From contig NZ_CP059221.1 in NCBI RefSeq assembly GCF_014252375.1, forward strand, positions 124,001-188,000: a stretch of DNA of 64,000 nt. The letters run 5' to 3'. Source of the stretch: Blattabacterium cuenoti (GTDB lineage: Bacteria > Bacteroidota > Bacteroidia > Flavobacteriales > Blattabacteriaceae). This document shows, piece by piece, positions 43,554-45,577 of this stretch; the stretch's first letter is position 1, and the number at the start of each line of letters is the position of its first letter. A model generated the notes under the pieces. The model did not search any database. It saw only the letters and a list, made by a program, of their open reading frames with translations, and was not told where the DNA came from. A program made the position numbers and the translations under genes.

Positions 43554-43742
43554 CTATATTTGTTTTTTAATATTCTTTTTATCTGATTTTTTTACCAAAA
43601 AAAAATTTCTTAATCGTCTTTTTCTTTTTTTAGATTTTTTAGTTAATAAATGATTCTTAAATGAACATTTTTTTTTTATATGTCCACTGCATGTTTTTTT
43701 AAATCTTTTTTTTGATCCTGATTTAGTTTTTAATTTAGGCAT
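43554..43742 (-). CDS. rpmI: 50S ribosomal protein L35
   Basis: This 62-residue, strongly basic protein starts with the typical [15 protein letters not shown]. The internal [15 protein letters not shown] segment is also family-like. It sits between infC and rplT, as in most bacteria, with gaps of four and three bases. L35 is a late-assembly ribosomal protein of the large subunit. Confidence 0.96.
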
Positions 43743-43746
43743 ATAA

Positions 43747-44268
43747 TTAAAATTTTTTTGGAGATATAATCATATACATTCTTTTACCCTCCATAATTGG
43801 CATTTGTTCTACTTTTCCATATTTTTCAATATCTTCTGCAAACTTTAATAATTTTATTTTACCTTGTTCTTTATATACAATAGAACGTCCTTTAAAAAAA
43901 ACAAACACTTTTACTTTATCACCACGCATTAAAAATTTTTCAGCACTTTTTAGTTTAACTTTTCCATCATGATCTCCTATTTGTGGTCCAAATCTAATTT
44001 CTTTTGTATTAACTTTTACTTGTTTTGCTTTAAATTGTTTTTTTCTTTTTTTCTGTTCATATAAATATTTTTTATAGTCTAATATTTTACAAACTGGAGG
44101 TATTAATTTTGGATTTATTTCAACCAAATCCATTTCTCTTTCTTTTGCTAAAGAAAGAATATCTTTAGTTTTATATATTCCATTTTTAATAGATTTATCT
44201 CCAACTAAACGAATCATATTAGAATAAATTTTATTGTTAATACGATGAAATTCTTTTTTTTTTATAAT
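43747..44268 (-). CDS. infC: Translation initiation factor IF-3, AUU start
   Basis: IF-3 checks the start codon and keeps subunits apart. The core is clear: [51 protein letters not shown]. The first ATG (44217) would begin inside the conserved N-terminal domain at MIRLVGD. Upstream codons in frame continue the family sequence ([12 protein letters not shown]), so the true start must be earlier. No ATG, GTG or TTG fits. An ATT at 44266-44268 lies 12 bases after a full AAGGAGG. infC starts with AUU in E. coli, where it permits self-repression. This start gives 173 residues. Confidence 0.85.
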
Positions 44269-44280
44269 TGGCTTGTAAAC

Positions 44281-44287
44281 CCTCCTT
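44281..44287 (-). promoter_or_regulatory. Strong Shine-Dalgarno sequence of infC (AAGGAGG)
   Basis: On the minus strand this reads AAGGAGG, a perfect anti-SD complement, 12 bases before the ATT start. I saw nothing comparable at the other starts I inspected, consistent with the rarity of SD sites in Bacteroidetes. It is the main evidence placing the infC start. Confidence 0.7.
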
Positions 44288-44332
44288 TTCTTGTTTATTC
44301 TTGAAAATTTTTTTTTTATAATTATAAAATTT

Positions 44333-45577
44333 TTAAAATTTATATAAATTTATTTTATTTAAAATTTTTTTTATTCCATCAATATAATAGAATTTTCCTA
44401 TATTTCCTAATTTATGACATCTTATTGATATCAAATTTTCTTTTTCTTCTTTCTCTCCTAAAATAATCATATAAGGAATTTTATCACTTTCAGAATCCCT
44501 GATTTTTTTATTAATTTTTTCATTTCTTTTGTCAATAAAAGATCTAATATTATAATTTAAAATTAAATTTAAAATTTTTTTTGCATAAATTATGTTCTTA
44601 TTACTAATAGGCAAAATTGCTACATGATAAGGTACCATCCACAATGGTAAATCTCCTTTTGTATGTTCTATCATTATTGCAATAATTCTTTCTAATGAAC
44701 CAAATGGTGCTCTATGAATCATTACAGGTCTATACTTTTTATTATCACTACCTCTATAATATAAATCAAATCTTTCAGGTAAATTGTAATCTATTTGAAT
44801 AGTACCTAATTGCCAACTTCTTCCTAAAGAATCTTTTATCAAAAAATCTAATTTAGGACCATAAAATGCTGCTTCTCCATAATTAATAATAGCTTTTATA
44901 TTTTTATTTTTAACTGATTCTAGTATTGATTCTTCTGCTTTTTTCCAATTTTCATCTGATCCTATATAATTTCCAATTTTATTGGGATCTCTTAATGAAA
45001 TTCTAATTATATAATCTGTAAATCCTAAAAATTTAAAGATATAAAATACTAAGTTAATAACGTTATCAAATTCTACTAATAATTGATTATATGTACAAAA
45101 TATGTGTGCATCATCTTGAGTAAAAGATCTAACCCTTATTAATCCATAAAGTTCTCCACTTTTTTCATATCTATAGACTGTACCAAACTCAGCAAATCGT
45201 TTAGGTAAATCCTTATATGACCATTCTTGTGAACGATAAATTTCACAATGATGTGGACAATTCATTGGTTTTAGTATAAATTCATCATTACTTGGTGTTT
45301 TAATAGGCTTAAAACTGTCTTTTCCATATTTATTCCAATGTCCACTTTTAATATACAATTTTTTGTTTCCAATATGAGGAGTTATTACCATTTCATATCC
45401 TGATCTTTTTTGTATTTTTATTAAAAATTTTTCTAAATTATTTCTAATAATTGTTCCTTTAGGTAACCATAATGGTAATCCGGATCCAACTTTATCTGAA
45501 AAAATAAAAAACTTTAATTTTTTACCAATTTTTCTATGATCTCTATCATTAGAATAAATGAAATCTTTTTCTTCCAT
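44333..45577 (-). CDS. thrS: Threonyl-tRNA synthetase lacking TGS and editing domains
   Basis: The protein has only 414 residues against about 640 normally. It begins at the linker helix (NDRDHRKIGKKLKFF) and contains the complete class II catalytic core and the anticodon-binding domain. The zinc ligands are C107, H158 and H289, matching E. coli C334, H385 and H511 at offsets of 227, 227 and 222. Motif 2 (FGTVYRYEKSG) and motif 3 (HRAPFGSLERI) are intact. The N-terminal TGS domain and the editing domain that clears Ser-tRNA(Thr) are absent, and glpF ends only 24 bases upstream, so they were deleted rather than frameshifted. It heads the usual infC-rpmI-rplT series. Confidence 0.95.
   Translation of the reverse strand: MEEKDFIYSNDRDHRKIGKKLKFFIFSDKVGSGLPLWLPKGTIIRNNLEKFLIKIQKRSGYEMVITPHIGNKKLYIKSGHWNKYGKDSFKPIKTPSNDEFILKPMNCPHHCEIYRSQEWSYKDLPKRFAEFGTVYRYEKSGELYGLIRVRSFTQDDAHIFCTYNQLLVEFDNVINLVFYIFKFLGFTDYIIRISLRDPNKIGNYIGSDENWKKAEESILESVKNKNIKAIINYGEAAFYGPKLDFLIKDSLGRSWQLGTIQIDYNLPERFDLYYRGSDNKKYRPVMIHRAPFGSLERIIAIMIEHTKGDLPLWMVPYHVAILPISNKNIIYAKKILNLILNYNIRSFIDKRNEKINKKIRDSESDKIPYMIILGEKEEKENLISIRCHKLGNIGKFYYIDGIKKILNKINLYKF

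Follow-up and report, generated by a model that had tools for sequence, protein, structure and literature searches.

A probable weak AUA or AUU start codon for infC just past the thrS stop in Blattabacterium cuenoti

The infC locus and its neighbours

The window analyzed here is a stretch of 64,000 nucleotides from Blattabacterium cuenoti. The genome carrying it comprises 574 kb on two contigs, and its congeners all have genomes of 0.5–0.6 Mb. On the minus strand of the window, infC lies between thrS and rpmI (Table 1), the same gene order as thrS-infC-rpmI-rplT in E. coli. The infC product was identified as IF-3 by its IF3_N and IF3_C domains, both above the curated cut-off in a profile search (PF00707, E=3.9e-31; PF05198, E=1.2e-24), and it also matches IF-3 structures in the PDB (best E=7.9e-37). 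Alignment with E. coli IF-3 shows that the key residues Y70, Y75, K110, and R133 are retained in the Blattabacterium protein. R112, R116, R131, R147, and R168 are replaced by lysine, and R99 and Y107 align with glycine at two positions where the alignment is uncertain.

The analysis covered the 5' region of infC in 37 genomes of the genus. One of them, G007, was excluded for its broken frame, leaving 36 rows with the own genome included. In G007, infC is split over several frames, with breaks apparently located at poly-A runs; errors in assembly, gene decay, or slippage-mediated rescue by the polymerase may account for them.

Table 1. Features at the infC locus, in window coordinates
Feature	Coordinates	Strand	Remarks
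thrS (threonyl-tRNA synthetase) ORF	44333..45577	-	Upstream neighbour; stop 44335-44333; from ORF list and terminal alignment
AUU alternative start	44320..44322	-	Directly upstream of AUA 44319
AUA candidate start	44317..44319	-	5' limit of the invariant peptide; slightly preferred
infC, IF-3	43747..44319	-	190 aa if begun at AUA 44319
Conserved basic N-terminal extension KKKFSRINKKRRVYKP	44269..44316	-	Upstream of ATT 44268; pN/pS 0.26, 27 genomes
AAGGAGG	44281..44287	-	Codons for Lys-Arg-Arg; alignment columns 11-13 are K/R, K/N/R, and R/K
ATT 44268	44266..44268	-	Internal Ile codon; column 18: Leu 15, Ile 6, Phe 4, Val 2 (27 genomes)
rpmI (bL35)	43554..43742	-	Next operon gene; ATG start, read from sequence

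The N-terminal extension and the AAGGAGG motif

Conserved IF-3 codons extend upstream of the first ATG (44217), as the original prediction had pointed out, and the AAGGAGG motif and the in-frame ATT that it proposed as Shine-Dalgarno (SD) site and start codon are both present. The ATT at 44268 had been regarded as the only sensible start. However, the frame is open further upstream (200 codons), and the conserved peptide reaches ATA 44319/ATT 44322. A basic N-terminus with the consensus (ATA)KKKFSRGNKKKRIFRPLPQKKEEHRIN is common to all 36 genus genomes and starts 17 codons upstream of ATT 44268. The span from this ATA to RIN ranges from 23 to 28 codons, with indels always of whole codons. Computed on the 27 rows without indels, pN/pS for codons 2–17 (44316-44269) is 0.26, with substitutions clustered at third positions, and the other two reading frames of the same stretch give 1.19 and 0.65. 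Upstream of ATA/ATT, pN/pS is 1.25 in the nearest eight codons and 1.06 in the preceding eight, compared with 0.26 inside, indicating that coding constraint begins at ATA/ATT and not at 44268. By the coding alignment, the start region lies 51–54 nt further upstream than the AUU first proposed. Start calling based on ATG drops 34 (AUA) or 35 (AUU) residues of infC, instead of the 17 originally estimated.

Judged from this alignment, AAGGAGG is part of the conserved N-terminus of IF-3 and not a ribosome-binding site. A start at AUU 44268 driven by AAGGAGG as an SD site is highly improbable. The motif has a predicted pairing energy of -9.1 kcal/mol with the altered 16S tail of the own genome (through G-U pairs) and of -12.3 kcal/mol with the canonical tail, ranking in the strongest 0.5% of random 20-mers, and motif and ATT occur together here and in G009, the closest relative, which shows 90% identity across 240 nt. 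However, purifying selection acts on this stretch as coding sequence, a gap of 12 nt between AAGGAGG and ATT is long, and the pair is not conserved, being absent in G016 (77% identical) and in nearly all other genomes. The original prediction had itself named loss of both elements in close relatives as a refuting outcome, and this outcome is observed. The motif was also thought to be rare; eight copies occur in the window, although it holds that no other copy immediately precedes the start of an ORF in the list. Genome-wide, AAGGAGG occurs 47 times, fewer than a reversed control string (108).

The 16S rRNA 3' end, whose inspection the original prediction had proposed, reads GGCTGGAACATCTCTTTTTT, where the usual form is GGATCACCTCCTTT. 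The altered core is the same in all 30 genus genomes read, each of which lacks CCUCC, and the tail without CCUCC, GAACATCTCTTTTTT, is nearly invariant across these genomes. That Blattabacterium has lost the CCUCCU anti-SD is already on record (PMC6107228). As the sole disproof of pairing, the loss of CCUCC is insufficient, since the altered tail still pairs at the predicted -9.1 kcal/mol. Pairing is weakened, not abolished; the 16S tail backs the coding evidence and would not suffice alone. None of the 39 ATG-started ORFs in the window has an SD with either the own or the canonical tail, which also speaks against an SD-driven start at 44268, and the 20 nt upstream of ATT/ATA (44322/44319) show no pairing with either tail. 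The infC gene was not counted as SD-led, because its start has no upstream SD and AAGGAGG lies inside the coding sequence.

SD use in Flavobacteriales has been described as limited to rpsU (PMC9976891). The rpsU gene (bS21) of the own genome has no SD, unlike that of many Flavobacteriales, suggesting that the self-regulation of rpsU described for F. johnsoniae has been lost along with the anti-SD.

Start codons of infC in the genus and in Flavobacteriales

No ATG, GTG, or TTG was found between the upstream in-frame stop, which lies 2 to 13 codons upstream of ATA, and ATA itself in any of the 36 genus genomes. A weak codon is present at the conserved 5' limit instead, and infC was classified as a weak-start gene on this basis. 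Codon 44319 is ATA in 35 genomes and ATC in one, with a purine at -3 in all 36. Codon 44322 is ATT in 25 genomes, ATC in four, ATA in one, and implausible as a start in six. The AUA is present throughout with near-zero synonymous change, and the small number of further conserved Ile columns are slightly more variable. Free-living relatives open with (start)-Ala-Ile/Leu-Arg/Lys, which makes 44319 equivalent to their Ile, and provided that ATA 44319 corresponds to the Ile in (M)A-I-R-R, AUU 44322 aligns with the free-living ATA/ATC/CTG start. Also in favour of AUU 44322, two other members of the family have the infC 5' ends ATC GCG TTA CAA AAA AAA TTT (G275, 1.3 Mb) and ATT GCT TTA AAA AAA AAA (G276, 0.3 Mb). 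Among four congeners read later, three agree with the pattern; in the fourth, G213, codon 44322 is ATG. Conservation favours AUA, and the free-living (M)AIRR alignment together with the ATG of G213 favours AUU. We hold AUA 44319 to be the start with roughly even confidence, and AUU 44322 with rather less than even confidence.

Two forms of IF-3, with a long product initiated at 44319/44322 and a shorter, minor product initiated at the internal AUU 44268 or AUG 44217, would be conceivable from the internal purine-rich site and the internal ATG, and codon 14 or 18 is ATG or TTG in several congeners. The position of these internal start-like codons, however, differs by species and tracks amino-acid identity, and we consider a second form improbable.

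A comparison set of 83 Flavobacteriales genomes outside the genus, representing 45 genera, was examined. Starts were called as a weak codon followed by GCN, as CTG followed by AGG, AGA, or AGT, or as ATA followed by GTA. With this rule, which was fitted to the same data and on which the exact counts depend, the conserved 5' limit of infC is ATA in 42, CTG in 19, and ATC in 14 genomes (75 of 83). Without recourse to the rule, 70 of the 83 genomes lack any ATG, GTG, or TTG in the stretch that runs from the in-frame stop upstream to the conserved core. The eight uncalled genomes comprise two with ATG, one with GTG, one that is probably frame-broken, and four with a weak codon or unresolved. A purine is found at -3 in 72 of the 75 weak starts, and only four have a strong match of SD type (-7 kcal/mol or better with the canonical tail). 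The triplet before the weak start is strikingly uniform outside the genus, being GCC, GTC, ACA, or ACC in 51 of the 75. Across infC of the Flavobacteriales compared, the identity of the codon shifts and the weak class stays. Elsewhere in the phylum, TTG or ATG is found in some lineages and ATC or ATA in others.

Several highly reduced symbionts of the family (G273, G274, G277, G288, and G289) have ATG or TTG available at infC. The ATG or TTG in G213 and several small-genome family members indicates that certain lineages can do without the weak start, and suggests its repeated loss under extreme reduction in the family. Through its ATG, G213 lends itself naturally to a test for lost IF-3 autocontrol. 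These exceptions, together with an AT bias that favours ATA and ATT, could also mean that the weak start is real but a mutational relic or neutral feature rather than a regulatory device. This is unlikely: free-living Flavobacteriales with large genomes share the weak class, their codons include CTG, a codon that AT bias would not yield, and the neighbouring control gene rpmI has an ATG start in all 56 loci.

Proposed control of infC and comparison with known systems

IF-3 makes initiation unstable on any codon outside the set AUG, GUG, and UUG. Plentiful IF-3 would reject the near-cognate AUA/AUU, so that IF-3 may hold its own level. The distance from the thrS stop is 13 nt to AUA 44319 and 10 nt to AUU 44322. 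In 35 of the 36 genus genomes the thrS stop lies -4 to +25 nt from ATA, with a 4-nt overlap, ATAA, in 12, and this closeness makes coupling to thrS translation plausible. Most ribosomes would probably come to the infC start from thrS, through translational coupling or re-initiation. From these sequence features we infer both thrS coupling and IF-3 autocontrol for Blattabacterium infC. It is likely that infC begins at AUA 44319 or AUU 44322 just past the thrS stop, lacks an SD, and is under IF-3 autocontrol, probably coupled to thrS. A codon that varies while its weak class stays fixed would be the outcome expected from selection for IF-3 sensitivity; conservation of the codon class alone is no proof of autoregulation. 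The original idea that IF-3 self-control of its rare start codon has been kept fits the conserved weak class, but its SD component does not hold. The expectation of a weak non-AUG infC start missed by ATG/GTG/TTG-based callers is partly supported, and was right in kind; the retained weak start has broader support than was first claimed.

Weak infC starts are already known from E. coli, Streptomyces, and S. aureus; Flavobacteriales and Blattabacterium add a new lineage. The E. coli infC has an autoregulated AUU start, according to work by Butler, Springer, and Grunberg-Manago as cited in PMC5472188. Both genes encode IF-3 and have a start codon of the class that IF-3 discriminates against, whereas in Blattabacterium the codon is AUA or AUU, an SD is absent, the 16S tail lacks CCUCC, and autocontrol is our inference. 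In S. aureus, an AUA start of infC has been mapped by ribosome profiling (PMC13009471); the codon is the same, but that start is directed by an extended SD and Blattabacterium has none. The ATC start of Streptomyces infC (PMC5472188) is likewise non-canonical and commonly misannotated, with a different codon and lineage. Flavobacterium rpsU, autoregulated through an extended SD (PMC9976891), comes from the same order and likewise encodes part of the translation machinery; its self-control resembles that proposed for infC but depends on an SD, which Blattabacterium infC lacks. A literature search of mainly open-access reach found no report on infC start codons in Bacteroidetes, which is weak evidence of novelty.

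On balance, we lean slightly towards an order-wide, SD-independent autocontrol of IF-3 through a weak start (AUA/AUC/CUG/AUU), which would have persisted in Blattabacterium after loss of the anti-SD and would be coupled to the thrS stop. Standard start calling probably truncates infC across the whole order, and surveys of start context anchored on truncated infC starts examine the wrong place for this gene. The fixed weak class with a shifting codon provides a natural experiment on IF-3 feedback in non-SD bacteria. If the order-wide reading is true, feedback through start-codon discrimination by IF-3 would be independent of SD pairing.
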